Origin: Clostridia bacterium
Lineage (GTDB): Bacteria > Bacillota > Clostridia > Lachnospirales > Lachnospiraceae
Length of the DNA: 35,222 nt
Direction of reading: 5' to 3'
NCBI GenBank assembly: GCA_029101305.1
Contig: JAQXQS010000185.1
Coordinates: forward strand, 1-35,222
The notes beneath the pieces are model-generated. The model was not told the origin of the DNA, did no database searches, and saw nothing but the letters and a program-made list of their open reading frames with translations. Positions within the stretch are counted from its first letter, which is position 1; each line of letters opens with the position of its first letter. This document shows, piece by piece, positions 1,024 to 32,101 of this stretch. A program made the position numbers and the translations under genes.

Positions 1024-1708
1024 ACATTTCCCGCGCTGCCCGCTGATACTTCCGGGAAATGGGAATTTCCACCGATTGTACTACGAATTTGCCGGCTTCC
1101 ATTTTTTCCACAAAATACAGACTGATGATGTAGCTCTGGTGACAGCGGAAAAACAGGCGGGCCGGAAGCTGCTGCTCCAATTCATCCAGCTTGGCATAGC
1201 TTTCGATCGTGGTGCCATCGTCCAGGTAAATTTTCACCTTGCGGTTGGCACTTTCCGCGTAAAGGATATTGCGGCAGAAAACCCTGCGGAAGCTTCCACC
1301 AGCTTCTTTCAGCATCAGAGAAGCACGGCGCTCCAGGTTTGGCTTCTGCCAGAAGAAGGTAATGCAGTTATGAAGCTCGCTTACATCAAATGGATAAAGC
1401 AGATACCCGGTTGCAAATACGGAAAAAGCTTCCGCATAGTATCTCTGGGAATCTGTAATGAAACAGATCATCACTTTCCTGTTCCGGGCGCGGACTCTCG
1501 TCGCCAGCTGCACCCCGTCTCCCTCGCGGATCAAGGTAGTGTTCAGCAACAAAATGTCAAAGGAAGAGCTATCTTCATCCACGTTTTCCAGGTAATCGTA
1601 TTCATTTGTAAATTCACTTACCTGAATCTCTACATTCATCCCGGTAAGACCAGCCCGAATATATTCTCTGCGTTCTTTTGACTTTTCCACAATTGCTGCC
1701 CGCAACAT
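995..1708 (-). CDS. LytTR-family response regulator with degenerate receiver
   Basis: A 237-residue regulator of the AgrA/LytR type. Residues 1-120 form a receiver domain and about 135-237 a LytTR DNA-binding domain (FFRCHQSYIISL and IPISRKYQRAARE are typical). The receiver has lost its chemistry: the phospho-acceptor Asp is Asn56 in LLLN56TTL, the acidic pair is reduced to Glu8-Lys9, and the conserved Lys before Pro-Phe is Tyr105 (LLY105PF). Thr85 remains. It should therefore act without phosphorylation, perhaps controlled by abundance or a partner such as the neighbouring GHKL protein. A GGGGGAT ribosome site precedes the ATG. It sits inside the pilus operon, 71 bp after pilO, and probably regulates pilus genes or its own downstream region (inference). 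Confidence 0.85.
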   Translation of the reverse strand: MLRAAIVEKSKERREYIRAGLTGMNVEIQVSEFTNEYDYLENVDEDSSSFDILLLNTTLIREGDGVQLATRVRARNRKVMICFITDSQRYYAEAFSVFATGYLLYPFDVSELHNCITFFWQKPNLERRASLMLKEAGGSFRRVFCRNILYAESANRKVKIYLDDGTTIESYAKLDELEQQLPARLFFRCHQSYIISLYFVEKMEAGKFVVQSVEIPISRKYQRAAREMYYDYMFEKM

Positions 1709-1779: not shown

Positions 1780-2409
1780 TTAATAGCTGCTATCTGCCAA
1801 TTCCCCGGCGGCATCTGCAGCGGCTGACGTATCTGCCGGAAGGCCACTGTCTGCCTTTCCACCCTGCATGGTCTCATAGAATGTCGCAGTCACACCAACA
1901 TTTACGCTTCCCACATTCAGGTCGTCACCTTCCCCAGCCACGTTAATATCACTTACGATGCATCTCCACTCTCCAGAGCAAAGGCTTTTCACCAGCTCTG
2001 CTGCCTTGTCATAGTTAGACGCTGAGAATGTCAGGCTGAAGGATCTGCGGATCAGATCTCCATCTCTTGTTACATCACTGAAACTGATATCGTATGTATT
2101 GGCATCCTTAAGGATCTGGTTCAGCTCATCCAGTTCCGCCTTGGAATTGTTGTAGCTGCCCATTTTTCCCAGGCCGCCGTCCTGCTCTATGGAGTCCAGC
2201 TCGCTCTGCATTCTGGACAAAGACGCTGCCTTCGTCTGTAAAAGCATCAGTTCAGTGTTCAGCTCGTCCTGCTGGCTTTTGGCCTCATTAATCGCGGTCC
2301 GGATGGGCTGGTCTACTACCACGTAGTATCCGGCTGCCAGAAGGATCAGTGTGAGCACCAGAAGCATTATTTTTTCTCTCATGGTAAAATCACGGCTCAT
2401 GATTTTCAT
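1780..2409 (-). CDS. pilO: PilO-like type IV pilus alignment protein
   Basis: A 209-residue bitopic membrane protein. It has a short cytoplasmic N-terminus (MKIMSRDFTMREK), one membrane segment at about 14-33, a coiled-coil stretch at about 36-75 rich in Glu, Gln and Leu, then a small ferredoxin-like domain (about 85-180) and an Ala/Asp/Ser-rich tail. Size and layout match PilO/GspM proteins, which pair with PilN outside the membrane and connect the platform to the assembling pilus. Direct sequence similarity is weak in this family, so context matters: its ATG overlaps the stop of the pilM-pilN fusion in an ATGA arrangement, implying coupled translation at near-equal amounts. An AAGGAGG site lies just upstream. 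Confidence 0.8.
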   Translation of the reverse strand: MKIMSRDFTMREKIMLLVLTLILLAAGYYVVVDQPIRTAINEAKSQQDELNTELMLLQTKAASLSRMQSELDSIEQDGGLGKMGSYNNSKAELDELNQILKDANTYDISFSDVTRDGDLIRRSFSLTFSASNYDKAAELVKSLCSGEWRCIVSDINVAGEGDDLNVGSVNVGVTATFYETMQGGKADSGLPADTSAAADAAGELADSSY

Positions 2410-4427
2410 TCCTGTGCTCCTCCTTCCGCGCTGTCTCCAAATCCGTTGTCTGCTGCACTTCCATCTACTGTACCGCCTGCTGCCGCACCATCGTCTGCCG
2501 TACTGCCAGCCGCTGAACCATCTGTAACACCGCCAGCTGTCATACCGGCATCTTCCATACTTCCATCTGCCATTCCATCTGCCATTCCATCCGCTGTCAC
2601 AGCCGCCTCTGCTGCATTCGCCTCCACCGTAAGCGGATCCAGCAGATAGATCACGATTTGCCCGGTTACTTTATCCGCAGCAGCTTCTGTCTCGGTATTT
2701 CCATCTGTCACCGCTGTCATCACATTGCAATAGTCCACAACCGGCTCCTGCTCCAGCTGCTGTACCAGGCTGTTGATATCGGACAGATTTTCTCCTGTCA
2801 CCGGAAGAGTCAGCTGATTGCCGCTTACACTCCAGCTGCTTACTGTCACCTTCGGGAAAATCACATCTTTCATTAAATGAAGGACGTCCGGGCGGTTGAG
2901 ATAACTCAGCTCGTCACTGGTCAGTCCCTGATAGGTGTAATGGGCATACGTCTCCTGAAGATCCCCGAAGCTGTCAATATAAGCCGTAATGTCATCCACC
3001 TGCTTTTGCAGCTCCGAAGCCGCGCTCTGGACTTCACTCATCTGCACCAGACGGTCTGCCACTGCAAATTTCCCAATAGCACCAGCCACCACCACAATCA
3101 CACCGATTGCAGGAATGGCAACGAAATAATGCTTTTTCTTCTGGCCTGCAAGTGCCAGGTTGATCTGCTTCTTCGGCGCACGTGCAGTACGGCCAAGGGC
3201 AGTACCTGCCGCGATCATCCACAGCGAGGAGGTTTCCTCCTGATTGCCTGTCCCCATTCCCTCCAGGAGCTCACTGGCATCATGAAGCTTCACATCCAGG
3301 TTCTCCTTAAGGCTCTGGCGCAGGCTTGCTATGGAAGCACCACCTCCGCAAAGGTAAATATCTTCCAAACGGCTGTCCGGATTACTGAACTGATAGAAGT
3401 TCAGCGCACGCATCAATTCTACACTGATCTGGGAAAAAGCATCCTGACACACATCGCTGTTCACACAATCTTCGTGATTCGTAAGAAGCCAGGTATGTGC
3501 CAGATGGATGTCGATATGTAAACTGTCTGCAAGGAGCTCTTCTACCTGCTCCATGCCTCGCTCGATCACACGGGTAACCTGGTGCCTGTCCCCCTTGAAG
3601 ATCAGAAGACGGCTGGATGTACTTCCCAGGTCAAGGATTCCGTATTCTCTCTCTTTGTCTGTCTCATTCTTCAATTTATAATGAAGCAGGTTCTCACAGG
3701 CGGAAACCTCCGGTGCTGCACAGGTCAGCTTCAGACCGGCCTTTCTCGCCATAAGCCGGAGATCATCCATAGCTTCAAGGGGTGCTGCGGCAGCAAGAAG
3801 CTCCATTTCCCTGCGTTCCTGGCCATCCTGATTCTCTGATACACCGGAAGCACCAAACGCCCCGGCGTTTCCAGCTGTTCCGGAACCTCCAAACGCGCCT
3901 GCACTTCCAGACGTTCCGGAGCCTCCAAACGCGCCTGCACCAGCTGTCCCTGTGCCTCCGGCCGCTCCCGCACTTCCAGAGCTCACTGAACTTCCAGATG
4001 CGTCCGGCTTCTTAGCTTTCCTGCTGCTTTTTCCGCCTTTTTTCAGCTTCTTTCCCTTCGGCATCTCCTCACTGGAGCCCCAGGAATAATCAAATGCATA
4101 TTTCTTCAGTTCATCTGTAATATAATCACGGAATTCATAAGGCAGGTTATAAACCAGCTGCTCTGCCGTCATCTCCGGCATGGTCACATTACGGAGAAAG
4201 CAGATTCCTGAAGACACCACAACAGCCGCTTCTTTACAGCGGATCTTGTTCTCCTTCATGGTTTTGCGGATAAGCTCTCCTGTGGTCTCCACAGAAACGA
4301 TCCTGCCATCCTTCAGAAGTCCCTCAGGCATCTGCACAGAGGCCGTCTTCTGAATGGTCTCCCCTTTCATCAGCACCAGTTTCAGCTGATCCTTTCCTAT
4401 ATCAATTCCAAGACATGATTTTGCCAT
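2406..4427 (-). CDS. pilM: PilM-PilN fusion protein
   Basis: About 673 residues combining two pilus proteins that are usually separate. Residues 1 to about 410 are a PilM actin-like ATPase (opening CLGIDIGKDQLKLVLMKG, later YGILDLGSTSSRLLIF and IYLCGGGASIASL). It is interrupted at about 125-230 by a Lys-rich then Gly/Ala/Ser low-complexity insert with 12-residue repeats. From about 418 comes PilN: the cytoplasmic INL motif (QINLALAG) that normally docks into PilM, a membrane helix (about 434-455), a coiled coil and a periplasm-type domain. It ends in an acidic Gly/Ala/Asp/Met tail. A Met four codons upstream (4439) is possible, but AGGA directly before the ATG at 4425-4427 favours this start. 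It should form the inner-membrane assembly platform with PilO. Confidence 0.88.
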   Translation of the reverse strand: MAKSCLGIDIGKDQLKLVLMKGETIQKTASVQMPEGLLKDGRIVSVETTGELIRKTMKENKIRCKEAAVVVSSGICFLRNVTMPEMTAEQLVYNLPYEFRDYITDELKKYAFDYSWGSSEEMPKGKKLKKGGKSSRKAKKPDASGSSVSSGSAGAAGGTGTAGAGAFGGSGTSGSAGAFGGSGTAGNAGAFGASGVSENQDGQERREMELLAAAAPLEAMDDLRLMARKAGLKLTCAAPEVSACENLLHYKLKNETDKEREYGILDLGSTSSRLLIFKGDRHQVTRVIERGMEQVEELLADSLHIDIHLAHTWLLTNHEDCVNSDVCQDAFSQISVELMRALNFYQFSNPDSRLEDIYLCGGGASIASLRQSLKENLDVKLHDASELLEGMGTGNQEETSSLWMIAAGTALGRTARAPKKQINLALAGQKKKHYFVAIPAIGVIVVVAGAIGKFAVADRLVQMSEVQSAASELQKQVDDITAYIDSFGDLQETYAHYTYQGLTSDELSYLNRPDVLHLMKDVIFPKVTVSSWSVSGNQLTLPVTGENLSDINSLVQQLEQEPVVDYCNVMTAVTDGNTETEAAADKVTGQIVIYLLDPLTVEANAAEAAVTADGMADGMADGSMEDAGMTAGGVTDGSAAGSTADDGAAAGGTVDGSAADNGFGDSAEGGAQE
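3850..3957. repeat. 36-bp tandem repeats inside pilM-pilN
   Basis: Three imperfect 36-bp copies starting near 3850, 3886 and 3922 encode 12-residue units of the type AGAFGGSGTSGS. They lie in the low-complexity insert of the PilM half. Such in-frame repeats are prone to copy-number change without breaking the reading frame. A second simple repeat, encoding MADGMADG, is at about 2567-2590. Confidence 0.75.
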
Positions 4428-4458
4428 ATGTATCCTCATTTCTATGTCTCAATTTACT

Positions 4459-4627: not shown

Positions 4628-5422
4628 TCACAGCAATCCCATATACCAGTTCACCAGGCCGTCCCCATACAGCAGCATGGCATAAAATGCCAGCGCGATC
4701 GCAGGTCCGAATGGGATCTGGGGACTTTTCCCCTCTTTTCCACACTTCTGGATGGCTCCTGTAACAAGCCCGAGAATACAGGAAAAAAACAGAGCAAACA
4801 GGGACGCTGCCACTCCAAGGTAAAGTCCCATTACCACGAAAAGCTTCAGATCTCCGCCTCCCATGGTCTCTTTGCCAAGGATTTTATCAAAAAGCAGCAC
4901 AAGAGCCAGCATAACAGCTCCATAGCCTACGCCGGAAAGTACATGGTAAAGCACATCCATTCCACTCATTCCCACAAATGGAATCGCCACGAACCAGGCG
5001 ATCACCGGGATCAGCACACATCCATTTGGAATCTCGAAGATTTCCAGATCCACCAGGGAAAGACAGAACAAACAGCAGGCCAGCACCATATTGCGCACAT
5101 ACTCCGGGGAAAGATCGAACCGGAGAAGACTGAGCACGCTTACCAGGGCAAAAAACAGCTCCGTAAGCATGTATCTGGGACTGATCTTTGTTTTACAATA
5201 ACGGCACTTTCCACCCAGGAAAATCCAGGAAAAGACCGGAATCAGATCCAGGAACCCCAGCACATGACCGCAGCTGGTGCAATGGCTTCTTCCTTTTATA
5301 AAAGATTCTCCGTGGGCGATCCGCCATGCCGCGCAGTTTAGAAATGATCCAAGCACGGCACCGAATATCCCTGCCAACACACAACAGTATATCATAAAAA
5401 AAGTATCTTCATATATAGACAT
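4628..5422 (-). CDS. pilD: Prepilin peptidase (A24 family)
   Basis: A 264-residue multi-pass membrane aspartyl protease that removes the short basic leaders from the prepilins of this locus and usually methylates the new N-terminus. The N-terminal domain (GSFLNCAAWRI, then CTSC at 48-51 and CRYC at 73-76) has the four zinc-binding cysteines of full-length prepilin peptidases. The two catalytic aspartates are Asp125 (LVDLEIFEIPN) and Asp191 (MGGGDLKL). Several hydrophobic helices follow. The ATG at 5420-5422 has a weak AGGAA site. It follows pilC by 78 bp and is separated from pilM by the cloverleaf element. No residue needed for activity appears to be missing. Confidence 0.96.
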   Translation of the reverse strand: MSIYEDTFFMIYCCVLAGIFGAVLGSFLNCAAWRIAHGESFIKGRSHCTSCGHVLGFLDLIPVFSWIFLGGKCRYCKTKISPRYMLTELFFALVSVLSLLRFDLSPEYVRNMVLACCLFCLSLVDLEIFEIPNGCVLIPVIAWFVAIPFVGMSGMDVLYHVLSGVGYGAVMLALVLLFDKILGKETMGGGDLKLFVVMGLYLGVAASLFALFFSCILGLVTGAIQKCGKEGKSPQIPFGPAIALAFYAMLLYGDGLVNWYMGLL

Positions 5423-5500: not shown

Positions 5501-6715
5501 TTACATAACACTGTACATCTGGAACATGGCAATATAAACGGCCAGTACAATATACCCGGCAACGCCAGCCATGAAAACCAGCAAAGTTGGCTCCAGTTTT
5601 TTCAGAACATCCTGTACTACCATGTCAAGTTCAGCCTCATAGTAACCGGAAATGGTATGCAAAGTGCCTTCCAGCTCGCCAGTCTCTTCCCCGACTGCCG
5701 TCATATCCACCAGGATATCCGGCAGACAATTCGCTTCACGCATACATTCTCCAAGAGTGTGTCCCTCTTCCAGACGGGAAGTCATCTTGCCCACGCACTG
5801 GCTGATGTAATAATTATCGATTACACGGGCGGTAATGCTGACAGCCTTTGTCAGCTGCAGACCAGCACCGATCAGGGTCGTCAGGTTCGCGGCAAACTCG
5901 CTGGCTGCGCCAAGGAGAGTTACATTTCCAAGCACAGGCAGCTTCAGGGCAAGCTTCGCCACGTTGAGACGGCCTTTTTCCGTATTGGCGTAAAGCTTGA
6001 AAATCAGGCCGATGGCAGCCAGAACCACAATGATCATGAAAATATACTTCTTAAAGAAATTGGATACCCAGATCAACGACTGGGTAATCAGCGGCAGCTC
6101 CGCATCATAGGATTCGAAAATATCCATAAAGGTGGGCACAACCTTTACCATCAGTACGATTACTACCACTACAGAAAGTGCAAGGACGAAAATCGGATAA
6201 ATCAGGGCGTTCCGCACTTTTGCGCGCATTTTTATCTGTTTGTCGTAATGCTGGTACATGGTCTCAAAGGCCCTTGCCAGGTTACCGGATTCCTCTCCGG
6301 CACGGATCGTCTCTATGAAAACTGCCGGCAAAATCTTGCCGCCCCGTTCCTGAAAGCTTGCTGCCACGCTGCGGCCTGCTTCCACATCCTCTGCCACTTT
6401 TTTCAAAATACCCTTCAGCTTCTTATCGGTCATTTTGTCCCCGATCAGCCGGACGGTACGGCCAATGGGAATACCGGACTTCAGGATAATGGAAAACTGA
6501 GAGCACATCAGGGAAAATGCCTTGGTATTCAGACGGTTTCCACCGATTTCCATATTCAGAAGCCCAGGCTTCTTCTCTTCCACTTCCGTAAGCTTCAGGA
6601 CAATATCGCAGTCCTGCTTGATACGGTCAACCGCATCAAATTCATTAAAGCCCTCTACAACACCGGAGACTTTCACTCCATCTTTGGAAATGGCTGTATA
6701 TTTGTAGGTTGCCAA
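5501..6715 (-). CDS. pilC: Type IV pilus inner-membrane platform protein PilC
   Basis: A 404-residue polytopic membrane protein with two T2SSF domains. The first is at about 68-190 (FSLMCSQFSIILKSGIPIG, then EESGNLARAF) and the second at about 270-395 (FAANLTTLIGAGLQL, then GEETGELEGTL); the paired EE-x-G-x-L signatures are diagnostic. Membrane segments lie near 170-190, 220-240 and 375-398. It forms the platform turned by the PilB and PilT ATPases. The start is a TTG codon (6713-6715), 7 bases after AAGGTGG and followed by ATYKYTA, the normal beginning of the family (first codon as Met). The rare start codon may lower its translation. It lies 41 bp after pilT in the same direction. Confidence 0.96.
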   Translation of the reverse strand: MATYKYTAISKDGVKVSGVVEGFNEFDAVDRIKQDCDIVLKLTEVEEKKPGLLNMEIGGNRLNTKAFSLMCSQFSIILKSGIPIGRTVRLIGDKMTDKKLKGILKKVAEDVEAGRSVAASFQERGGKILPAVFIETIRAGEESGNLARAFETMYQHYDKQIKMRAKVRNALIYPIFVLALSVVVVIVLMVKVVPTFMDIFESYDAELPLITQSLIWVSNFFKKYIFMIIVVLAAIGLIFKLYANTEKGRLNVAKLALKLPVLGNVTLLGAASEFAANLTTLIGAGLQLTKAVSITARVIDNYYISQCVGKMTSRLEEGHTLGECMREANCLPDILVDMTAVGEETGELEGTLHTISGYYEAELDMVVQDVLKKLEPTLLVFMAGVAGYIVLAVYIAMFQMYSVM

Positions 6716-6756: not shown

Positions 6757-7803
6757 TTACGCGTTCTTCCTGATATACGCAGCATCGTGACCGTATTCCA
6801 GAGCTTCCGCCTTGTCGATCTGTCTGGATCTTACCAGACTTACCAGAGACTGGTCCATGGTCTGTCCGCCAATGGCAGCGCTGGTTGCAATGGCGTTGGC
6901 GATCTGCGGGGTATTTCCGCCACGGATCATGTTACGGATAGCGTCTGTTACTACCATAACCTCACTTGCCAGCACACGGCCGCCCATTTTTTTCTTCACA
7001 AGCTGCTGGGAAATAACTGCCATCAATGTCATGGAAAGCTGGAGACGGATCTGGTTCTGCATTCCTTCCGGGAAAACCTGCACCATACGGTCAATGGCAT
7101 CTGATGCGCTTCCTGTGTGCAGGGTTCCGAACACCAGATGTCCGGTCTCAGCTGCTGTGATAGCAGTTTCAATGGTGTCCTTGTCTCGCATCTCACCGAT
7201 GAGGATAACATCCGGGTCTTCTCGCAGGCTGGCACGCAGACCTTCGGAAAAGCTTGCCGTGTCTTTTCCCACTTCTCTCTGGTTGATCACGCAAAGATCC
7301 GGGGCATAAACATACTCGATAGGATCTTCCAGGGTTACGATATGGTTCTTTCTGGTATGATTGATCTCATCCAGCATAGCCGCCAAAGTGGTAGATTTAC
7401 CGGAACCAGTCTCACCAGTTACCAGAACGATTCCTTTGTGAAGTCTGGTGAATTCCAGTGCTGAGGGCGGAAGTCCCAGTGAATCCAGTTTTGGAATGGA
7501 TTCGCTAAGCAGACGGATGGCGGCTGATACCTTGCCCTGCTGCTTGAATACATGACATCTGCAGCGGATTCCCCTGATCTCACGGGAGAAATCCAGTTCC
7601 CCCGTGTATTCCAGTTTCTCATACATGGCGTCCTTTGCCAAATCCTGGCAGAGCCTGCCGCAGTCGTCCTCTGACAACCGCTCATCTGCCATGTTTTCCA
7701 ACTGTCCATCCAGACGGTATTTCGGCGGAAGGCCGCATACCAGATGGATGTCGGAAGCACCGTTTCGTTTCGCTAGTTCGGTTAAGTCTTCTATATTGTA
7801 CAT
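6757..7803 (-). CDS. pilT: Pilus retraction ATPase PilT
   Basis: A 348-residue hexameric secretion-type ATPase that powers pilus depolymerisation and twitching. Visible motifs are Walker A GETGSGKST (about 129-137), the Asp box VTLEDPIEYV, Walker B ILIGEMRD, the His box FGTLHTGSA, and the PilT-specific C-terminal AIRNMIR, needed for retraction in studied homologues. Length is normal for the family (about 345-370). An AGGAG site lies 8 bases before the ATG. It lies 27 bp after pilB. Its presence means these pili are probably dynamic rather than static fibres. Confidence 0.97.
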   Translation of the reverse strand: MYNIEDLTELAKRNGASDIHLVCGLPPKYRLDGQLENMADERLSEDDCGRLCQDLAKDAMYEKLEYTGELDFSREIRGIRCRCHVFKQQGKVSAAIRLLSESIPKLDSLGLPPSALEFTRLHKGIVLVTGETGSGKSTTLAAMLDEINHTRKNHIVTLEDPIEYVYAPDLCVINQREVGKDTASFSEGLRASLREDPDVILIGEMRDKDTIETAITAAETGHLVFGTLHTGSASDAIDRMVQVFPEGMQNQIRLQLSMTLMAVISQQLVKKKMGGRVLASEVMVVTDAIRNMIRGGNTPQIANAIATSAAIGGQTMDQSLVSLVRSRQIDKAEALEYGHDAAYIRKNA

Positions 7804-7830: not shown

Positions 7831-9555
7831 TCACTCTTCTTCTGCGCTCTTCACATCCCCGGTCTCATAAATAACACGCTGCACTTCTTCCGCAGTGGTA
7901 ATTCCCTCTTCCACCAGCTGGATGGCGTTTTCCCGCAAAGTCTTAAAATCGCTGTGGTCGCTTGCCAGCTCTTTCTCAATAGCCGGGCGGCCGGCCTGCT
8001 GGGAAATCAGCGGGCGGATTTCCGGAGTGATCTCCAATATCTCAAATACACCGATTCGTCCACGATAACCGGTATTAAAGCAGTCTGCGCATCCTTCGCC
8101 ACGGTAAAAAATGTGCTTATGGCCAGTATCCATCCCCAGACGGCGCACTTCCTCATCAGATGCCTCATAGCTCTTTTTGCATTTCGGGCAGATACGACGG
8201 ACAAGTCGCTGGGAAATAACGGCACGAAGAGCAGTTGCGATCAGATACGGCTCTACGCCAATATCCTCCAGACGCTCAATGGTTCCCACCGCATCATTGG
8301 TATGGATAGTGGAAAGCACAACATGTCCTGTGATGGCGGCACGCATACTGATCTGGGCGGTCTCACCGTCTCGGATCTCTCCTACTGCAATGATATCCGG
8401 GTCCTGACGGAGAATGGCACGAAGTCCATTGGCAAAATCCATACCGGTTTTCTCGTTGATCTGTACCTGGTTTACACCGTCAATATTATACTCAACCGGA
8501 TCCTCCAGGGTTACTACATTGACTTCCTCTGTATTTAACTGGGAAATCATGGTGTTCATAGTGGAAGATTTACCACTTCCGGTAGGTCCTGCGATCAGGA
8601 TAACACCACTGTTACAATGAATGGCGCGCTGGTATTTCTTCAGATTATCTCCCATAAGACCAATGGAATCCGGGGTAAGATATCCGGCTCTTTTGTCCAG
8701 AAGACGGGCAACGATTTTCTCTCCATAAACAGTAGGCAGGGAGTTTACACGAAGGTCAAACTCACGCTTTTTATTCTTTACATTGAAACGTCCATCCTGT
8801 GGAATACGTCGTTCTGCGATATCCATTCCACTCATGATCTTCAGACGGGAAATAACAGAGTTCTGCAGGTTCTTCGGAATGGTAAGGATTTTACGGAGCA
8901 CACCGTCGATACGCATACGCACCTGAAGCTCTTTTTCCTTTGGCTCAATGTGAATATCACTGGCACGTTCTAGAATGGCACGCTCGATAATGGAGTTTAC
9001 CAGACGGATAGTCGGGGCATCGTTGATATTATCATTAAGGATGTTTCCTGAGAACTGGGTTTCCTCTGTATCCTTCTCTTCTGTGGGTGCCTCACGCTTC
9101 ATGGCCTCAATGGCTCTGGCAGCACCCTCATTTCCGTAGAGTACCAGGATGGCATGCTCTACACCCGCGGCAGTGGCGATCATCGGAATGATTTTCTTAC
9201 GAACCGCCTTCTTCACTTCCTCGATCGCGTAGAAGTTCATCGGGTCACTCATAGCCAGATACAGCTCATCCTTCTCGATGCGCACCGGCACTACCTGGAA
9301 CTGTTTCGCAATATTTTTCGGAACCGCCTGCGCCAGTGAAATAGGAATGGTTGTCTTCGAAAGATCTATGTATTCAATACCCAGCTGAAGACGAAGGGCT
9401 TCGATCAGCTCCGCCTCTGTGATGATCCCAGCAGAAATCAGAGCTGCACCAAGTCGCTCCTTGGTCTGTTTCTGCCGCTGTAAGCCCATATCCAGTTCTT
9501 CCGGGGTAATGGTACCTGCCGCGATCAGCAGGTCACCAAGACGTTTGTATGCCAT
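7831..9555 (-). CDS. pilB: Pilus extension ATPase PilB with MshEN domain
   Basis: A 574-residue ATPase driving pilus assembly. The N-terminus has two copies of the MshEN c-di-GMP-binding motif: residues 5-28 begin RLGDLLIAAG, and residues 34-57 begin RLGAALISAG, with the spaced Leu and final Gln conserved. The motor domain has Walker A GPTGSGKSS (about 322-330), the Asp box VTLEDPVEYN, Walker B IIAVGEIRD and the His box LSTIHTNDA. A CxxC pair at about 457-460 (CPKC) and another at about 489-492 (CADC) form the zinc knuckle typical of PilB. A strong AGGAG site precedes the ATG. The MshEN motifs suggest c-di-GMP activates pilus extension, as shown for MshE and proposed for clostridial PilB. Confidence 0.97.
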   Translation of the reverse strand: MAYKRLGDLLIAAGTITPEELDMGLQRQKQTKERLGAALISAGIITEAELIEALRLQLGIEYIDLSKTTIPISLAQAVPKNIAKQFQVVPVRIEKDELYLAMSDPMNFYAIEEVKKAVRKKIIPMIATAAGVEHAILVLYGNEGAARAIEAMKREAPTEEKDTEETQFSGNILNDNINDAPTIRLVNSIIERAILERASDIHIEPKEKELQVRMRIDGVLRKILTIPKNLQNSVISRLKIMSGMDIAERRIPQDGRFNVKNKKREFDLRVNSLPTVYGEKIVARLLDKRAGYLTPDSIGLMGDNLKKYQRAIHCNSGVILIAGPTGSGKSSTMNTMISQLNTEEVNVVTLEDPVEYNIDGVNQVQINEKTGMDFANGLRAILRQDPDIIAVGEIRDGETAQISMRAAITGHVVLSTIHTNDAVGTIERLEDIGVEPYLIATALRAVISQRLVRRICPKCKKSYEASDEEVRRLGMDTGHKHIFYRGEGCADCFNTGYRGRIGVFEILEITPEIRPLISQQAGRPAIEKELASDHSDFKTLRENAIQLVEEGITTAEEVQRVIYETGDVKSAEEE

Positions 9556-9606: not shown

Positions 9607-10206
9607 TTACTTCGTTATCTTAATCTTGTTTACCGGAAGTACATCAAATGCATTGGTAACAAGTAATTTTCCATTTTTATCACTAATATTTAATACTACA
9701 TGAAACACATTATTTGATTCATCATATGTTATGTTCCCCGCCTCAGCCTTCAGATCATAGGAACTATAGCTTGCAGAAGAAATCAGCTTCTGCCAGATTA
9801 TTGCATTGGTAGTTTTATCGGTTACCTGTATGGCCAATTCGCCACCATCTGTACCTGATATCACGTTTCCATTTTCATCCAATGCGCAAAAACCGCTTTT
9901 TGTCTGTCCATAAACTACACTGAAATAAGCCGTTAAACGATTGCTTCCGTCCAAAGCTGCACTGGTAGCATATCGAAGTTCTGTTTCTATGGAATTCGTC
10001 AATGTAGAGCAAAGCTGCTTGGCATGAGAACGGGATAATGTCTCATTGTACATTCGTGTTGCAAAAGCAATTCCCTGTGCCATTACTTGACTTGCCAGCA
10101 GCAAAATAATTGTAGCCGCCAGCAATTCCCCCAGGGAAAAGCCTCGTCTTTCTGACAGCTTACCACGTATTCTGTTTATTATTCGTTTTTTCGCTGTGTG
10201 TTTCAT
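9607..10206 (-). CDS. Minor prepilin-like protein (PilW/GspJ type position)
   Basis: A 199-residue prepilin. A long basic leader of 22 residues ends in ERRG, then mature FSLGELLAATIILLLASQVM with Glu5 and a hydrophobic helix. The soluble part (about 60-199) has beta-rich patterns such as YFSVVYGQ and FHVVLNIS, and only two cysteines. A good AGGAG site precedes the ATG. It is the gene before pilB and one of four successive prepilin-like genes. By position and size it resembles the GspJ/PilW-type minor pilins that prime assembly with GspH/I/K-like partners, but I cannot assign it to one subfamily. Confidence 0.85.
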   Translation of the reverse strand: MKHTAKKRIINRIRGKLSERRGFSLGELLAATIILLLASQVMAQGIAFATRMYNETLSRSHAKQLCSTLTNSIETELRYATSAALDGSNRLTAYFSVVYGQTKSGFCALDENGNVISGTDGGELAIQVTDKTTNAIIWQKLISSASYSSYDLKAEAGNITYDESNNVFHVVLNISDKNGKLLVTNAFDVLPVNKIKITK

Positions 10207-10287: not shown

Positions 10288-10599
10288 TTATTGTACTTCA
10301 TAATATTTATAGCCATTTTCTGTTTCGTGAAAGTTTACTGAAATCGAAATTTCTGCAGCCGTGCCTGCTTTTGAGCCGTCTGTGATTGTCACATTATCAT
10401 GCGTTACAGTTTCACTTTCTGTAGAAAATGAGGTATCAGTATTATCAGCTTTTTTATTGACTCTTGCAGATGTAACTACCGCTCCCGCCAGCATTAGAAC
10501 TGCCAGTGAAAGTATAATCATGGTAACTAATGTTTCTGCAATCGTCTCTCCAGATGTACTATTTATTTTTTTTCGAAAAATCTTTATTCTATTTCTCAT
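10288..10599 (-). CDS. Small minor prepilin
   Basis: A 103-residue prepilin. The leader of 17 residues ends in STSG, followed by mature ETIAETLVTMIILSLAVLML: Glu5 is present, but the first mature residue is Glu rather than Phe or Met. After the helix only about 55 residues remain, Thr/Ser-rich, with a short beta segment (ISVNFHETENGYKYYEVQ). Its ATG overlaps the stop of the upstream prepilin (ATGA), and GGAGG lies seven bases before it, so the two are translationally coupled. It resembles GspI/PilV-type small minor pilins in layout; the subfamily is not certain. Confidence 0.8.
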   Translation of the reverse strand: MRNRIKIFRKKINSTSGETIAETLVTMIILSLAVLMLAGAVVTSARVNKKADNTDTSFSTESETVTHDNVTITDGSKAGTAAEISISVNFHETENGYKYYEVQ

Positions 10600-11327
10600 G
10601 TGCCAGCCTCCGAAGTACGCTCCTGATCTCCGTAAATAAAATCGGTTGCCGTCCAGGTATATGTTTTATTAACAGTTGTAGTAGTAGTTCCTTTATTGGG
10701 GTCATTTATTGTATCAAACTTCTCATTTACTGCACCCGTCAGATATACCACAATCTGACAGTCATCTGCAGTTGCCCCTGTTGACAGCTTTATAGTAATA
10801 TCATATCCATTTCCGCTTTTTGCCTCTTGGATAATACAATTCGCAGTCACCGGCACAAAAGTTTGTCTGAGCTCTGTCCCCTCTGCCGTTGGTACAGAAA
10901 TATTATACGTTCGCTTTAATGTATTAGAAGATACTGAACTACGTTCTGCAAAGGTCTGAACATAATCCTGAAGAGATTGGGCAAACTCTGTCGAGATTGA
11001 TGTATTTTTCGGATTACTTTTCCAGCGTTCAGCTTCAGGTGTATCCTGTTCTACCATGCCTCCTGTTCCCTGTACTCTTATAACAGTGCTTCGATAATAT
11101 GTTATACTTGTATTTACAATTTCATCCCGCAACAGCTTTGCTGCACTGGAGCAGGTCAGATAATTCTGTTCTACCTTCTTATCGGATTCCACCCGTTTTA
11201 CAGTGGTAACAGAAGCACTCAGCATTACCGCGCTAAGAATAGACGCAACCATAAAAAGTAACAATCCAAAAAATATGGAGGTACCCCGATTTGACTTCAG
11301 TTTTTTCTCGATTCTAATTCTGAGCAT
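10596..11327 (-). CDS. GspK/PilX-like minor prepilin without Glu5
   Basis: About 243 residues. A frame open to 11420 would overlap the giant prepilin gene, but AGGAGGTG lies seven bases before the ATG at 11325-11327, which I take as the start (MLRIRIEKKLKSNRG). After Gly15 comes TSIFFGLLLFMVASILSAVM. The fifth mature residue is Phe instead of Glu, a hallmark of the GspK/PilX class that caps the pilus tip and needs no Glu5 because no subunit sits above it. The soluble domain is about 200 residues, with Thr-rich stretches near the end (KGTTTTTVNKTYTW). It is placed directly after the giant prepilin, suggesting the two act together at the tip (inference). Confidence 0.82.
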   Translation of the reverse strand: MLRIRIEKKLKSNRGTSIFFGLLLFMVASILSAVMLSASVTTVKRVESDKKVEQNYLTCSSAAKLLRDEIVNTSITYYRSTVIRVQGTGGMVEQDTPEAERWKSNPKNTSISTEFAQSLQDYVQTFAERSSVSSNTLKRTYNISVPTAEGTELRQTFVPVTANCIIQEAKSGNGYDITIKLSTGATADDCQIVVYLTGAVNEKFDTINDPNKGTTTTTVNKTYTWTATDFIYGDQERTSEAGT

Positions 11328-11382
11328 TTCAAAGCACCTCCTTTCTGTTACAATTTGTCTTTTTCCCGTGCAGAACAGCGCG

Positions 11383-14300
11383 TCAGCCTTCCCATCCAGC
11401 AAGATCATCTGAGAATCCATCTGCTTCCTGATTTGGAATCATATCCACTCCCTCATTATTCTGGTCTTCCTGATTATTGCTTTCTTCTGAAGTAAATCCA
11501 GAATCCTCAGTCGGCGTATCTGATGAAATAATCTGATTCGTTTCATCTGTTCCATTTGTTGCAGCTATTTTCGTCTGTGCCGTAAAGATGCAAAATGCAC
11601 TGTAATCCTTATTATCTTTTCCTTTTGCATTTACTGTAAGCCGGTAGGTTCCAGGAGCAGATACTGCCACCGTAACATTATACCCATCTGTGACTTTCTC
11701 AATAGCAACAACGCTTGCTCCCACATCGGATGCCGCCTGAGCCACAACTTCATCTTCTGTAGCATTCTGCTGGGAAACCTCGTTTGTTACCGTAAAGTCA
11801 GATAATGCCAATGTTTCTGCAAGGCATCCTGTTGCATCCTCTAAAAAGAATGTAGCCTTTACAGGATTCGTAGCTGTCGTTGTTGCATTTAACACTACAG
11901 ACTCGTTTGCGTTATTCCAACGAATTTCCGCCTCATTCTTAGTCGTTACTTCTACCCAGGCAATTCCACTGTAATCAACATTATTATAAGTATAAGTTCC
12001 GGTAACCGTCAAGGTTACAGGCGCATCCAAAGTTCCATAACATTGTACACTAAATCTGCCTCCGGATACTGCAGTACATCCAATTATATCCGGATCATCC
12101 GATGTGATCGTCCACGTCATCCTGGAAGCAAGATCCTTTCCTGTAGTCTGCGCAGTTCCCGCAGCCACTTCTTCTGCTTCATTATCTGTTACAATGTCTA
12201 CATAAGAATTTTCATCTATCGCTTCGTCATCACTTCCAGCTACCCATCCATCGTTTCCGGCGGATTGGACTTCTGTAACATCCTCGCCATCTAATATCGG
12301 AGAAGAAGCAGCATTCGCATGCACCTTAACCGCAGCGGTTTCCCCTGTATTCATTTCCAGCTTTTCCGGGTCCGTTGATACACTAAGATCTGCACTTACA
12401 CTAAGATTGAAAGAAGCACGGTATTCATTCCCATTCACATCTTTGGCTGTAACAGTGATAATGGTTGCTCCCGTTCTCAAAGCCCGAACCGTAGCAATAT
12501 AACACTTATTTACTTCATCATAACGAATGTCCCTGACTTCTGCAATCAGATCTTCCCCAGTTAATTCAACAGTACCAGGTTCTTCTGTCTGCTGGGCACT
12601 TTCTGTGGAAGCTCCCACTTGCGAAACATCCGAATCACTTCCACTTGAAAAGCCCTCCGAATCACCAATCTCACTGTCTCCATCTGAAAATGTGGCTATA
12701 TTCGCTTCCCCATCTTCTCCAGCAAATGAAGCCACTGCTGTATTGGTATCATCTTCTCCATTGCTATAACTGATGGTAAACTGATTATATCCTGGTGCCA
12801 AAACAGGTACCGGATCCAAAAGCCGGAATTCTTTTTCGGCCCACACCGTTTCTGTCTGCGCAGTGGTATCTTCTACTTGTAAATCTTCAAAAATATCCAT
12901 AGTTGCGCGGTTCTCTTCCCAGTATATACCTTCCAGCGGCCATTCACCATAATGAATATTAATATTGCCGTTCTGTTTCAAAATTGTGGGGAAAGGATAG
13001 TTCTCTCCATCCAATTCACCATGATTGCCAGGGAAAGTATATTTACCATCAACATCCTGGCCATTTTCAGAGGTCGTAACGGTAGAGAATTTATTTTCCT
13101 CTACCTGATTTTCATTTAACAACTCTACTAATGTTTTTCCGTTTATTTTTTCTATGCCGGCCAGTTGTTTCCAAGTAATAGGTTTCGCATCACTGTCTAT
13201 ATTCGTCCATTCTCTATATACATTCTGTTTTAAATCAGAATTCCAGAATGTTCCAGTATATTCTGGGCTATGGTCTTTAACCTGGAATTCTTTTGTTTTA
13301 GGAATATTATTGCCATAATAATAACAATTTCTCACGAGAACCTTTACATGATAATTGCTTTGATTTTCAAACGGTGTTTCTCCATTACTGCCAATTGGTT
13401 CTATTGACTTGATTCTGTTAATTTCCTCATTTTTGGACGGCATTTTTATATATTTATAACAATTTGTAATTTCGGTTTTATTTGTTTCACATTTTTTTCC
13501 ATTTTCAGCCCTATAAGCCGTTGTATCTTTAGAAGAATTTGTCCATCCTGTAACACCTAACACTGTCTTTCCAAGAAGCTTCAGGAAGTTTCCACTTCTC
13601 ATGCAAATTCCACCGGTAATACCGCCGAGAAATAATTTCGAGCCATAAGGATACTGTGCATTTTCCAGGCATCGCGGCGTAATTGATATCTCACCGCCAG
13701 TATAGCAATCACTTATTTTTCCACGCATACTGCCAACCAGACCACCGGTTCGCACAGATACACCATCGGTTTTTATTCCCTTCCCATTGGTATATTTCGT
13801 ATTTAATATAATATTATTAACTGCTGTACATTTCTTCAAATCCATTGTACTCATGCCAAACATTCCACCAATACATGCATCTCCCCATGCACTTTTTGTG
13901 CTGTTATCCTGAATATTATAGCCTGATACCGTACAATTCGTTATGTATACAGAGCCTGACTCTTTTTCCTGTCCTACAGCTGCAAGGCCACATAATCCTC
14001 CCATTACATACCAGGTTTTAGCATCTGATGTTCGTTGAATATAATTTCCATTGTCCGAATATAAAACAACGTTTTCAACATTTGCACCTATAATACAGCC
14101 AAACAACCCTACAGCTGTATTTCCACTGTTTATTTCTATATTTTTAATAGAATAAGTATTTCCATTGTATGCGCCACTAAAAAATGCCATATATGCATCT
14201 GCCCTTGCAGCCGCATTTCCATCAGCAGATCCATTTGCATCAAACAGAGAACCAATCGGATAAAAAAGCTCTGTAGTCTCATTTGGCTTCATATTTGCAT

Positions 14301-17300
14301 CCACATCATGTGTCTGATTCCAGAAATAATTGGCAGATCCAATTTGGTCTCCCCTAGTCTCAGCTGTATACATATACCCCAAGTATGTATATCCTTCAAC
14401 GATATTTGTATTATTACTGGTTATATCCGTAATAGCATTCTTAGTACTGCAATTCCAATTCAAATACTCCAACTGGTCATCTGAACGGATTTCATATTTA
14501 CATTCTGCTGTTCCAGGCATTGGATATGCACTTTCCGCCTGTGTGGCAATTCCATTTTCTGTCAGGCTTAAGCTCTTCGGCATACCATTATCGCTGCTGG
14601 TTCCATACTGCATTGCATTGGCAAAGAATGGATTAAACGTAAATGTATACTTCAATCCCTGGTATAAGAATGTCCATTCACCATTTGCAACAGATCTTTC
14701 ATTCGCAACCATGCGCATATAATCATCAGAGTCAGCAGTTCCGATTGCCGGTTTGGTGGTATATGCAACCACTGTAAAGCCATCCAGACGGCTGCTCAAA
14801 GCCTGGGAAGCCTCACTATTCCAGTTGCCAGTCTGGAAGTCCTTCGTTTCGGTTATTTTCGGAACATTTGCTCCTTCACTGGTATCTGCACTCCAATCCT
14901 CTCCATCTATACTTGCATAATAATAGCCATAGCCATATTCCGTAATAACACCGCCATCATCATGCTGCCTGCACAGAGTGCTTCCACTGATCATCTCTAA
15001 CGCATCGTCATTTCCTTTATAACCTTTATAAGAGAAATGATATCCATCGTTAGAGCCCCCCTGTTCAAGTTCCCAATAGACAATGCCAATTGCACCAAGA
15101 TTTTCTTTTATTTCCCAGTTTCCATAGTGACGTGCATTTCCTTCTTTGTCTGTAATAACAGTTTTAAATGGATAACTTAAATTGCTGTCACTGCCGGTTG
15201 CACTGTGACAGCGGGAATCATTTTCGCTATTTACTTCCATGTCTTTATAGCTCTTCTTCGTGCCACCGCCATTTTCATTATCAAAGGCATATAATTCACC
15301 TATATAACGGAATGTACCACCACTAAGATAACTGCAATCTGATACATTTCCACGAGGGGAAAATCCATAAGATGTAGTATTAGCTCCAGACGCAGTCAAC
15401 GCAACTGTGCAGTAGTCCCCCCCTAAATATCCGGCATTTCTGGAAGCAAAGCCACTGATTACCGTCTTTCCACCTTTTGCATTTTCAATCATAATATGAC
15501 CGATTGCATAGCTGTTCCGGATTCTTCCTCCCGAAGCATTTTCGCCGGCAAAACCGGCAAGATATGCATTTCCATAAAGAATCTCTGCATTAATCAGAGG
15601 AGTATCCGCTTCACAATTGAGAATGGTTCCGCTATTGCTTCCTGTCAGGCCGCCAAAATAGAAGGTTCCATTGCTTCGCACAAATACTTTTTTCGTTGTA
15701 TTCATGGTATAACCACTGACTGCGCAGTTCTGGATTCTTCCACTGTTGACTCCCACCAGTGCTCCCATATAGATTGTTTTGTTTGTTCCAATGGTTCCCT
15801 GATATTCCAGATATGGATTAGAGCCGCCTTCTTCATAATCAGAAACAAGAAAAACATTCTGCACAAGTCTACGGTTCTCTCCAATAAATCCTACTGTTGT
15901 TGCCGATGTAGAGAAACTGATTCCGCGAATTTCATAACAGTTTCCATTATATGCAGCTGTAAATGGAGTAATATTTTTGTTTCTTACTCCGATAGGTTCC
16001 TGTACCTGTACCAGATTGACTCCTGCATATTTATTCCAGGAATAGTCTCTGTAATCAATATTTGTTTCCTGAAAAAATGTGCTGTTTTTCACTTTTTCCG
16101 CATAATCAGGATAGTAAAGGCTTAAATGATATAGTTGTCTGGCTGTACGAATGCTGATATTCGTTGGAACAGCTGGTGCCTCAGTGGCATTTACAGCAGT
16201 TTTGGCAAAATGCGGATTATAGTAAAATACGCTTCCTGAAATTTCCTCTGCACTTTCGTCTGTGTCCGCAACGCCTACAGCACCTTCCCCTTGAATTACC
16301 AATTTCTGATAATAGGTATCTGGGATTGCCTGTGCATTTACAATTTCAGAGGAAAGTGGATATACATAATAAGTTTTTTCTTCACTTTCGCTATTTACTG
16401 TTACAGAATATCTGATTGCATCATCCGCTGTACTAATTTCACCTTTTTCTAATGTATCTTTATCTTTTGTTTCATAAAAAATCGTAATTTTATCTGACGG
16501 AATTTCCGCCCCTGCCTCATATGCAACTCCATATCCATCTCCAATAATGGTCTTATCATCTGATAACGTAGAGGGCATATTACCGCCAAACACACCATAA
16601 GATACATTCTCACCTTCCCGATAGATTTCATAATAAACCAGACTTCCAGACTCAAATGTAGCTTCCCAGTCTCCGTAATGTGCAATGTCCTTCAGTGCCG
16701 GGTATGAGTATCCCGTTAGGCCCTGGTTTTTCAGATTATAGGCATTGGTAGAAACAGCAGTACTGGTAAAGGCTTCTCCCAGCTTTGCAGCCATAGCAGT
16801 ACGGTTACTCAACGTTTTGTAGTCTACTTTTGTTCCTCTTCCAGAATTTTCCCCGAATTCACCCGGTGCTTTCATATAGTCTGTTCCACCATTCAGAAAG
16901 TAGCTGTTCCTTGCGGTTCCAGAAGCAAGAGATGCAATCTCTGCATTTCCTGACTGTGAAGTATTGGAAACGGTATTCCATTTAACCGCTGAATAGCAGT
17001 TTACCATATCTGTCCCCGTTGCTCTCCCTACCGCAACAAGTCCTCCGCCATTTTCCAAAGGAGTCTGATAGCCTACAGTATAGCAGGAATTGAGATTGAT
17101 ACTGATTTCACTTTCGGAAGCTGCTATAACTCCGCCTGTGACAGCTCCGGTCAGGTAAGAATCTGTATATGAATTTGTAACTGTAACTGTTGCTTTACTA
17201 TTGTTGTCAGGCACTCCAGTCCTTCCAATCATTCCGCCAACCTGCGTTGCATCCGTAGCCCCCATGACAGTCGAAGCAAAACATTTGTCAATTGTTACAT

Positions 17301-18855
17301 TTCCATAAGTTCTTCCAATAAGTCCCCCCTGTATTTTGGCGCCTGTAATCCAATAGTCCGCTTCTGTTTTTCCGGTAACATCTTCATTGCTTAAGAATAC
17401 CTGACAGTTTCTAAGTGTTACCGCACCAGCAGCTTCACCTGCAACTGCACCTGCAACAGAATTTTCACTATGATTTCCCGTTATACTGGTTCCAGACAAA
17501 CGTACCGAATCTACGATCATGCCATCTTTCAACGTTGCAAATAATCCAGCTTTATTTTCATTCGCTACATTCAGATGATAAATAACTGGCGTATTTCCGT
17601 TTGTATCAACTGAATAATTCGCTGAATAACCTGTCAGATTGTTATTTGTAATCGGTGTAAAGGTTTTATCTTTGTAGCAGCTATACCAGGAGCTTGTATT
17701 TTCTGTTTCTTCATCCAAGTCATCCTGTTTTTCAAAATGAATATCCTTCTGCTGTATCGCAGATGTAATTTTGTTCGTCACACCAGAAGTCTGATCCAGA
17801 TTCTGAAGGTGTCGGCCATACATAATAACTGCCTCATTTTCTGAAGAGTTATCTGCAAAAAGACTGTTTGTAGTGGCACTGACTTCTGCTGAATCAGCAA
17901 ACGCTCCAGAACTTTTTACCGTTGCTGTAATTTTCAAACTGCTACCCGGAGTCAGCCTTTTCGTCATATCTGTCACTTTGTTAGAGCTGTACAGATTAGA
18001 AAAACGGGATTCCGCATTTTTCAAATCATCCAAAGTCAGTTTCAGTTCATACCTGATACCTCTGACTGTACCCTCCTCATTCTTTGAGGTCGGCTGATTT
18101 TCTACATACATATCGTCTGAACGGTGAACCATTGTACCTCCCTGTGCTTTATAGCGCAAAGTCAGGGAATGGCCCTCACTGTCTTCCATTGTCACATCAA
18201 ACAGCAGATCATTGGCATCTGGTCGTTTGCAGCTGATTGTGGCCACCAGTTTTTCTTCATTTGTAATCGTCAAAGTCGGCGCAAGGGTAGATGTGTTTCC
18301 TCCTGCAATCATATCTCCACCGTAATAACCTACTTCTGCCCCATCAGCCAGTCTTGCCTTTTTATAACGAAGAGAATTATAAGTAATCGTATCATAGTTA
18401 TCTCTTGTTTCACTATAGAACACCGCATACACACTGGCACTGTCCGGATTATATTCTACCACCCAGTAATGATTGTATAGGTCATCATCAACGGTATCCT
18501 TTGTGACTAAAACACTTGCTACATTTCCTGATGTCTCCCTTTCGCTCGCAGTAACATAATACAATATAGAGCTCTTATCGCCATCTGCATCACTTGGATT
18601 CGCTGTTACCGGATTCGCTTTATCCTTCGCATACAACGAACTATTACCATTACTCTGCATCTTCACCAGATTGTTCTGCACTGCCGTGTAGATCAGCTCT
18701 GCCTTATTATCCAGGGCTTTCTGGCGCAGGTTTCTTTGTATGGCAAAAATTGCCGGTATGGCAATCGCCATAAGAACCAGAAGTATGGCTACTGTGAGCA
18801 GTACCTCGGCCAGCGTATATCCTTTTCTATTTTTATTTTTATCATATAAATTCAT
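11383..18855 (-). CDS. Giant GLUG-repeat prepilin, putative pilus-tip adhesin
   Basis: A 2490-residue protein beginning as a true prepilin: leader MNLYDKNKNRKG, then YTLAEVLLTVAILLVLMAIA with Glu5. After a pilin-like segment come three large blocks rich in GLUG-type beta-helix repeats (GGLIGRTYGNVTIDKCF, GALVGVNSGRIQNC, GGLVGSMRGKISDCY) at roughly 420-650, 890-1160 and 1450-1755. Each block is followed by an HYG-x-W signature (near 727, 1244 and 1969). Residues about 2050-2430 carry Ig-like folds (ITVTAKDVNGNEY, YRLTVNAKGKDNKDY), and the tail is acidic. No LPXTG motif or C-terminal anchor is seen, so attachment must be through the pilus. GLUG repeats occur in bacterial surface proteins. A GAGGT site lies six bases before the ATG. 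First gene of the operon. Adhesive function is inferred. Confidence 0.9.
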   Translation of the reverse strand: MNLYDKNKNRKGYTLAEVLLTVAILLVLMAIAIPAIFAIQRNLRQKALDNKAELIYTAVQNNLVKMQSNGNSSLYAKDKANPVTANPSDADGDKSSILYYVTASERETSGNVASVLVTKDTVDDDLYNHYWVVEYNPDSASVYAVFYSETRDNYDTITYNSLRYKKARLADGAEVGYYGGDMIAGGNTSTLAPTLTITNEEKLVATISCKRPDANDLLFDVTMEDSEGHSLTLRYKAQGGTMVHRSDDMYVENQPTSKNEEGTVRGIRYELKLTLDDLKNAESRFSNLYSSNKVTDMTKRLTPGSSLKITATVKSSGAFADSAEVSATTNSLFADNSSENEAVIMYGRHLQNLDQTSGVTNKITSAIQQKDIHFEKQDDLDEETENTSSWYSCYKDKTFTPITNNNLTGYSANYSVDTNGNTPVIYHLNVANENKAGLFATLKDGMIVDSVRLSGTSITGNHSENSVAGAVAGEAAGAVTLRNCQVFLSNEDVTGKTEADYWITGAKIQGGLIGRTYGNVTIDKCFASTVMGATDATQVGGMIGRTGVPDNNSKATVTVTNSYTDSYLTGAVTGGVIAASESEISINLNSCYTVGYQTPLENGGGLVAVGRATGTDMVNCYSAVKWNTVSNTSQSGNAEIASLASGTARNSYFLNGGTDYMKAPGEFGENSGRGTKVDYKTLSNRTAMAAKLGEAFTSTAVSTNAYNLKNQGLTGYSYPALKDIAHYGDWEATFESGSLVYYEIYREGENVSYGVFGGNMPSTLSDDKTIIGDGYGVAYEAGAEIPSDKITIFYETKDKDTLEKGEISTADDAIRYSVTVNSESEEKTYYVYPLSSEIVNAQAIPDTYYQKLVIQGEGAVGVADTDESAEEISGSVFYYNPHFAKTAVNATEAPAVPTNISIRTARQLYHLSLYYPDYAEKVKNSTFFQETNIDYRDYSWNKYAGVNLVQVQEPIGVRNKNITPFTAAYNGNCYEIRGISFSTSATTVGFIGENRRLVQNVFLVSDYEEGGSNPYLEYQGTIGTNKTIYMGALVGVNSGRIQNCAVSGYTMNTTKKVFVRSNGTFYFGGLTGSNSGTILNCEADTPLINAEILYGNAYLAGFAGENASGGRIRNSYAIGHIMIENAKGGKTVISGFASRNAGYLGGDYCTVALTASGANTTSYGFSPRGNVSDCSYLSGGTFRYIGELYAFDNENGGGTKKSYKDMEVNSENDSRCHSATGSDSNLSYPFKTVITDKEGNARHYGNWEIKENLGAIGIVYWELEQGGSNDGYHFSYKGYKGNDDALEMISGSTLCRQHDDGGVITEYGYGYYYASIDGEDWSADTSEGANVPKITETKDFQTGNWNSEASQALSSRLDGFTVVAYTTKPAIGTADSDDYMRMVANERSVANGEWTFLYQGLKYTFTFNPFFANAMQYGTSSDNGMPKSLSLTENGIATQAESAYPMPGTAECKYEIRSDDQLEYLNWNCSTKNAITDITSNNTNIVEGYTYLGYMYTAETRGDQIGSANYFWNQTHDVDANMKPNETTELFYPIGSLFDANGSADGNAAARADAYMAFFSGAYNGNTYSIKNIEINSGNTAVGLFGCIIGANVENVVLYSDNGNYIQRTSDAKTWYVMGGLCGLAAVGQEKESGSVYITNCTVSGYNIQDNSTKSAWGDACIGGMFGMSTMDLKKCTAVNNIILNTKYTNGKGIKTDGVSVRTGGLVGSMRGKISDCYTGGEISITPRCLENAQYPYGSKLFLGGITGGICMRSGNFLKLLGKTVLGVTGWTNSSKDTTAYRAENGKKCETNKTEITNCYKYIKMPSKNEEINRIKSIEPIGSNGETPFENQSNYHVKVLVRNCYYYGNNIPKTKEFQVKDHSPEYTGTFWNSDLKQNVYREWTNIDSDAKPITWKQLAGIEKINGKTLVELLNENQVEENKFSTVTTSENGQDVDGKYTFPGNHGELDGENYPFPTILKQNGNINIHYGEWPLEGIYWEENRATMDIFEDLQVEDTTAQTETVWAEKEFRLLDPVPVLAPGYNQFTISYSNGEDDTNTAVASFAGEDGEANIATFSDGDSEIGDSEGFSSGSDSDVSQVGASTESAQQTEEPGTVELTGEDLIAEVRDIRYDEVNKCYIATVRALRTGATIITVTAKDVNGNEYRASFNLSVSADLSVSTDPEKLEMNTGETAAVKVHANAASSPILDGEDVTEVQSAGNDGWVAGSDDEAIDENSYVDIVTDNEAEEVAAGTAQTTGKDLASRMTWTITSDDPDIIGCTAVSGGRFSVQCYGTLDAPVTLTVTGTYTYNNVDYSGIAWVEVTTKNEAEIRWNNANESVVLNATTTATNPVKATFFLEDATGCLAETLALSDFTVTNEVSQQNATEDEVVAQAASDVGASVVAIEKVTDGYNVTVAVSAPGTYRLTVNAKGKDNKDYSAFCIFTAQTKIAATNGTDETNQIISSDTPTEDSGFTSEESNNQEDQNNEGVDMIPNQEADGFSDDLAGWEG

Positions 18856-18968: not shown

Positions 18969-18997
18969 ATTATAAAACATGGTTTGGGCTTTCGCAA
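18969..18997 (-). promoter_or_regulatory. Sigma-A promoter of the pilus operon
   Basis: On the minus strand, -35 TTGCGA (18992-18997) and a perfect -10 TATAAT (18969-18974) are separated by 17 bases. Transcription would begin near 18962, leaving a leader of about 105 bases before the giant prepilin. I see no known riboswitch in that leader. This is the only strong promoter I found upstream of the pilus cluster. Confidence 0.75.
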
Positions 18998-32001: not shown

Positions 32002-32101
32002 TATCACACCTCTTGCTGTAATGTTTTTACTTTTCCTGACATCGCATTTTATCAACATTTAACATCATTTTTCTAAAAAATCCGCATTTCAGTTTTCGTC
32101 T

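Follow-up and report, generated by a model that had tools for sequence, protein, structure and literature searches.

The window analysed here, an entire contig of 35222 bases from a draft genome in 226 contigs, encodes a prepilin that exceeds a normal pilin many times in size. This raises the question of how a T4P (type IV pilus) machine would extract and assemble such a protein, and how so large a part would pass the cell wall. The reading that we find reasonably probable is that the giant prepilin encoded in it is a modular minor type IV pilin, in which a pilin of ~185 residues carries a C-terminal graft of ~2300 residues, and that it takes the fourth (H) slot of a minor-pilin set. Lachnospiraceae are major gut bacteria, and to our knowledge little is understood of the ways in which they attach to mucus, fibre or neighbouring cells.

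The giant prepilin gene and its operon

The frame of 2490 residues given in the preliminary description is real and open; it runs on the minus strand, which that description did not mention, from an ATG at 18855 to 11383 without internal stop, and encodes a protein with a computed mass of 270 kDa. The N-terminus, MNLYDKNKNRKG^YTLAEVLLTVAIL, has Gly at position -1 and Glu5 (RKG^YTLAE), i.e. the class III signal of type IV pilins. The canonical leader claimed earlier was borne out by both family models, N_methyl (24.2 bits, cut-off 21.2) and TIGR02532 (20.2 vs cut-off 16.3). An artefact of assembly or a fusion of frames might be suspected in a draft genome of 226 contigs, but we consider this extremely improbable and rejected it on account of homologues of stable length. 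The search for these took candidates of 0.55-1.75 times the query length, scored 7994 of them and found 2231 proteins at E <= 1e-3; within this length range, the best 120 of the 2231 measure 2379-2723 aa and show 46-99% identity. One of them, P0002, whose record bears the name Blautia sp. HCP3S3_H10_1, has 2492 aa and matches the giant along its whole length with 99% identity; Blautia belongs to Lachnospiraceae, and the NCBI name of this protein begins 'type II secretion system protein'.

In minus-strand order the giant is followed by K-like, I-like and J-like prepilins and then by PilB, PilT-type, PilC, PilD, PilM and PilO-like proteins (Table 1), so that relatives of six T4P machinery components share its operon. 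Behind the PilO-like gene the same strand carries a LytTR regulator, a 150-aa ORF and a truncated major-type pilin. The latter, absent from the preliminary description, led us to reject the giant as the major pilin. The gene directly after the giant does encode a prepilin lacking Glu5, as described earlier, with Phe in its place. As the scan for sigma-70-like sites performed close to chance (2 sites vs a shuffle average of 1.5), the place of the giant at the head of the operon is deduced from the order of the genes and from the 268 bases that separate it from its upstream neighbour.

Table 1. Features of the giant prepilin gene and its surroundings in the window
Feature	Position	Strand	Basis
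Giant modular prepilin, 2490 aa	11383..18855	-	ORF reading, N_methyl and TIGR02532 matches
Leader peptide of class III (residues 1-12), cleavage predicted behind Gly12	18820..18855	-	Sequence
Pilin module, ~residues 1-182, ending just past GYYGG (176-180)	18310..18855	-	Alignment with 198-aa same-slot pilin
Linker domain, residues 193-337, possibly beta-rich, no family match	17845..18279	-	47% median identity
GLUG-type block B1, residues 338-745	16621..17844	-	hhalign with B2 and B3
GLUG-type block B2, residues 893-1262	15070..16179	-	hhalign
GLUG-type block B3, residues 1448-1985	12901..14514	-	hhalign
C-terminal repeated domains, residues 2096-2430, possibly Ig-like	11566..12570	-	Pfam match below cut-off, hhalign
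Acidic C-terminal tail, residues 2431-2490	11386..11565	-	Sequence
Promoter-like site upstream of the giant, TTGCGA-17-TATAAT, 10 of 12	18969..18997	-	Sigma-70-like scan, not above chance
K-like prepilin without Glu5 (Phe5), probable start 11327 (Met32)	10596..11420	-	GspK model at only E 0.075
Small I-like prepilin, 103 aa, Glu5	10288..10599	-	Sequence
J-like prepilin, 199 aa, Glu5	9607..10206	-	Sequence
PilB extension ATPase with MshEN domain	7831..9555	-	Domain match
Probable PilT-type ATPase	6757..7803	-	T2SSE family; PilT from gene order and lack of MshEN
PilC platform protein	5501..6715	-	Domain match
PilD prepilin peptidase	4628..5422	-	Domain match
PilM with extra C-terminal part (probably PilN-like, by position)	2406..4439	-	Domain match
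PilO-like protein (T2SSM family)	1780..2409	-	Domain match
LytTR response regulator	995..1708	-	Domain match
Canonical major-type prepilin, truncated at the contig end after 80 aa	1..241	-	Sequence

Several other features of the genome were observed. Between pilD and pilM, on the other strand than the pil operon, lies a Clostridiales-1 RNA (Rfam RF01699, 106.3 bits) at 4460-4618 (+), which was not found in seven other pil loci. The PilM protein has a low-complexity Gly/Ser/Ala/Thr insert at residues about 130-200. MshEN is a domain of the c-di-GMP-binding type, and the contig also encodes a GGDEF protein with a sugar-binding sensor domain at 29968-32058 (-). Further major-type prepilins of the same genome (G000) occur on contigs C109 (L076), which has four, C131 (L077) and C13 (L078).

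Anatomy of the giant prepilin

The boundary of the pilin module could be placed by means of a 198-aa pilin of the same slot, which stops just past GYYG (residues 176-179 in the window's giant), where the graft begins; a second small pilin, of 213 aa, ends before this motif. A search for GYYG with a regular expression found it in 25 of 37 large prepilins, in one of them probably at the wrong place. Comparison of profiles by hhalign revealed an internal triplication of the graft, the three blocks being mutually related (B1-B2 4.4e-13, B2-B3 1.2e-11, B1-B3 3e-7). The linkers L1 and L2 are related as well (1.2e-6), and the two C-terminal regions repeat each other (4e-15); it should be underlined that all these are single-comparison E-values from shallow profiles (Neff about 2.5). 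A motif HYG[DNE]W follows each block (residues 726, 1243 and 1968), and repeats at the DNA level within the gene are short and weak.

The GLUG-type repeats of the preliminary description thus stand as motifs and as related blocks: the giant contains 12 GLUG cores, as compared with a mean of 0.95 and a maximum of 5 in 200 shuffles, and in 36 of the 37 large prepilins the count exceeds that of every shuffle (the exception is L088, of 670 aa). They do not stand as a family match, as a Pfam scan of the window's giant gave no hit with the GLUG model PF07581. This model is listed for 8 of 17 relatives, in 6 of the 17 above cut-off, and a Pfam GLUG assignment is precomputed for many homologues. Judging from the repeat type, the blocks may be beta-solenoids. 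The Ig-like domains claimed earlier fared similarly, the C-terminal self-repeat being evident but the Pfam match at residues 2380-2425 lying below cut-off (18.1 vs 27). PDB sequence searches gave no matches for block B2 and, for profile A1, matches to N-terminal pilin regions only (4 entries at E <= 1). Seven PDB matches of the GLUG region of another locus, L058 (five designed SAKe proteins and two 'scalloped'), were not taken as homologues.

With regard to conservation, the median identity to the window's giant among 27 homologues falls from 80% at residues 1-66 and 68% at residues 67-192 to 47-57% at 193-1968, 43-49% at 1969-2165 and 31% at 2166-2305. It is lowest at residues 2306-2430 (25%, 20 of the 27 homologues counted) and amounts to 35% in the acidic tail. 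Such a gradient is expected of a conserved stalk with a variable outer end.

The minor-pilin slot across genomes

Searches with the giant covered three genome samples that overlap (98, 64 and 397 genomes) and gave matches in 14, 5 and 17 genomes, respectively; within the genus, near full-length matches were confined to G000 and G014 among the 64 genomes. Twenty regions around matches were retrieved for inspection. Many of these loci share a set consisting of a large Glu5 prepilin, a Glu5-less prepilin, a small SGExxxE prepilin and a J-like prepilin. Gene order varies between loci, and in some the giant follows PilO and does not neighbour K, I and J; two loci (L061, L074) show no K, I or J within the stretch inspected, and in two others (L058, L069) the I-like gene has Ser5. 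A pattern scan of genome contigs yielded 97 pattern stretches, among which no relative was confirmed. In L064 the J-like prepilin beside the giant (10617-12857 (+)) is itself 746 aa long, so that a second slot can be modular too, and in L114 (G459:C3) two giant prepilins lie close together on one contig, the first with 2106 aa and the second an open frame with 2633 aa.

A sample collected without the giant as query was obtained by searching 397 family genomes with a profile of 16 I-like proteins, which 153 genomes matched at E <= 1e-3, many of the matches being other prepilins. We tallied the 33 of 42 listed rows at E <= 2.5e-9 that have frames up to 165 aa and left out nine with longer frames (G118, G105, G351, G193, G288, G137, G491, G437 and G103), five of which (G105, G351, G137, G437 and G103) sit on giant-bearing contigs. 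A further Glu5 prepilin of 670-4537 aa was present on the same contig in 31 of these 33 loci, a count that covers the matches listed and is biased, the profile having been built from giant loci and 13 of the 33 loci having supplied its rows. The remaining two end at contig ends (G164, a 3-kb contig, and G428, where an open GLUG-like frame runs off the end). Of the 16 tallied loci that the search with the giant had missed, 14 have the large prepilin and the other two are these truncated ones. The search for homologues in Lachnospiraceae that the preliminary description had proposed points to a four-prepilin set that recurs across genera.

The pilin module itself gave a second view of the slot. 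Among the matches listed for the giant-module profile, 57 rows at E <= 1e-18 in the 397 family genomes, 52, from 48 genomes, have frames of 600 aa or more (24 of the 52 lie outside the model rows) and five are short (G494, 340; G253, 200; G273, 226; G178, 154; G185, 163). Outside the family, frames above 2000 aa were found in G075, G800, G590, G579 and G730 among 391 class genomes, together with many ordinary pilins. The small pilins of 198 aa (G253) and 213 aa (G273) lie beside K-, I- and J-like genes and match the giant-module HMM at 4.5e-25 and 2.9e-25, so that the slot is not always occupied by a giant. The HMM is not exclusive, as it also matches major pilins, though less well (best 3.8e-22), whereas J-, I- and K-like prepilins reach 6.9e-8 or worse. 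At the other extreme, a 7662-aa frame in G280 (a genome with 7% contamination listed) has the leader and 88 GLUG cores with a PilT-like gene nearby, and would be by far the largest pilin known to us. The same genome has prepilins of 7662 and 3497 aa (G280:C19, i.e. L115/L116, and L117:2940-13433).

K, I, J and H are used here as labels, since all matches to the GspK, GspH, GspI and GspJ models stay far below cut-off. The best match of the J-like protein of L072 is GspI, and the GspH model matches the small same-slot pilin only (20.7 vs cut-off 80), whereas it does not appear among the matches of the giant. The I, J and H positions, the last being the one we assign to the giant, are suggested by gene order and size and by elimination.

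Leaders like those of prepilins are also carried by proteins that form no filament. It might accordingly be argued that the giant is a surface protein that uses its leader and the pil machinery merely as anchor or exporter, remaining in the membrane or being released and not entering pili; it is indeed difficult to imagine a protein of this size being built into a helical filament. We regard this as unlikely in view of its repeated occurrence together with T4P genes and with prepilins of the K-, I- and J-like types, of the small pilins in the same slot, and of Glu5, which is invariant in all 32 pilin modules aligned (from 32 of the 37 large prepilins); a motif D..A..I[FY].AAQN.L after alpha1 is common to most of them. 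A wall-anchored adhesin was rejected, as none of the 37 large prepilins has LPXTG in its last 80 residues. In 35 of the 37 there is no second segment with a Kyte-Doolittle value of at least 1.6, the exceptions being L059 (1.79) and L097 (1.64).

Proposed role and comparison with known systems

The earlier proposal of a pilus-borne adhesin at the tip can be kept in part: the prepilin leader, the T4P operon and the lack of any other visible tether speak for the pilus, while the retained Glu5 speaks against the apex. In the complexes described in PMC10628169 the apex is formed by a Glu5-less subunit, beneath which modular pilins display their adhesive modules; the giant is therefore likelier to lie below the K-like cap than at the apex, and its position is probably sub-apical. 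For a modular minor pilin we envisage that PilD would cut the leader and that the protein would wait in the membrane by helix alpha1 with its giant part outside. The PilB/PilC machine would then insert one or few copies below the K-like cap, the minor-pilin set including the giant would prime and cap the filament, and the growing shaft of major pilin would push the giant outward. The acidic graft, with its three GLUG-type blocks and C-terminal domains, would project near the pilus end and might bind a surface, a glycan or another cell, after which PilT could retract the pilus.

The pilus location of the protein, its kind of ligand and its part in adhesion are inferred, as is the name of its slot; the exposed module is probably an adhesin, and adhesion is our best guess for its task. 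The same modular pilin might instead serve a non-adhesive task, such as kin contact or DNA capture in the manner of ComZ, a solenoid-bearing pilin that can bind DNA (PMC6561018), and the Pfam scan of the window's giant matched no lectin or vWA family. We consider this rather improbable: the pI of the 37 large prepilins is acidic throughout (4.39-5.42), a property that hardly favours binding to DNA. The ComZ solenoid itself, however, has no characteristic positive patches according to the same paper.

Beyond this locus, we give an even chance to the view that the T4P of many Lachnospiraceae belong to a class not yet described, where a giant lineage-specific fibre is the default occupant of one minor-pilin slot and covalently takes over the role of a separate adhesin of the PilY1 type. 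The fibres of the proposed class would have about 0.7 to 7.7 thousand residues, and occasionally only 0.2. If true, these would be the largest pilins known and a main recognition system of these gut bacteria. A recurring pilus subunit of 670-7662 residues, with a 198-residue version in the same slot, provides a named gene for study, and it raises the further question of whether swapping one graft sets the target of each species.

Modular pilins as such are already known, over 1,200 proteins of 264 different architectures having been described (PMC8179133). The preliminary remark that the giant far exceeds known modular pilins holds against the extreme described there for multiple added domains, 860 residues vs 2490. 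A search by title and start of abstract in the open literature (i.e. outside most subscription papers and all preprints) found no paper that deals with T4P pilins of this giant type.

In Streptococcus sanguinis, PilB and PilC resemble the giant in having a class III leader and a pilin module with a grafted module, and their adhesive module has been shown near the pilus end beside a Glu5-less pilin (PMC8179133, PMC10628169). However, S. sanguinis PilB has a single vWA module and a mass of about 50 kDa, as compared with 270 kDa, a graft of ~2300 residues and three GLUG-type blocks. Thermus thermophilus ComZ is a pilin with a large beta-solenoid argued to lie at the pilus tip (PMC6561018); its DNA-binding solenoid of ~380 residues is inserted in the pilin sheet, whereas the graft of the giant follows the pilin module and is only presumably a solenoid. 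GspH-GspI-GspJ-GspK and PilHIJK likewise comprise four minor prepilins encoded together, with K lacking Glu5, but here the family models stay below cut-off and the fourth member has 670-4537 aa in the 31 settled loci. The tip adhesins PilC/PilY1 finally resemble the giant, as proposed here, in that a large adhesive protein is displayed by a minor-pilin complex; PilY1, however, is not a pilin, whereas the large part of the giant belongs covalently to one minor pilin.
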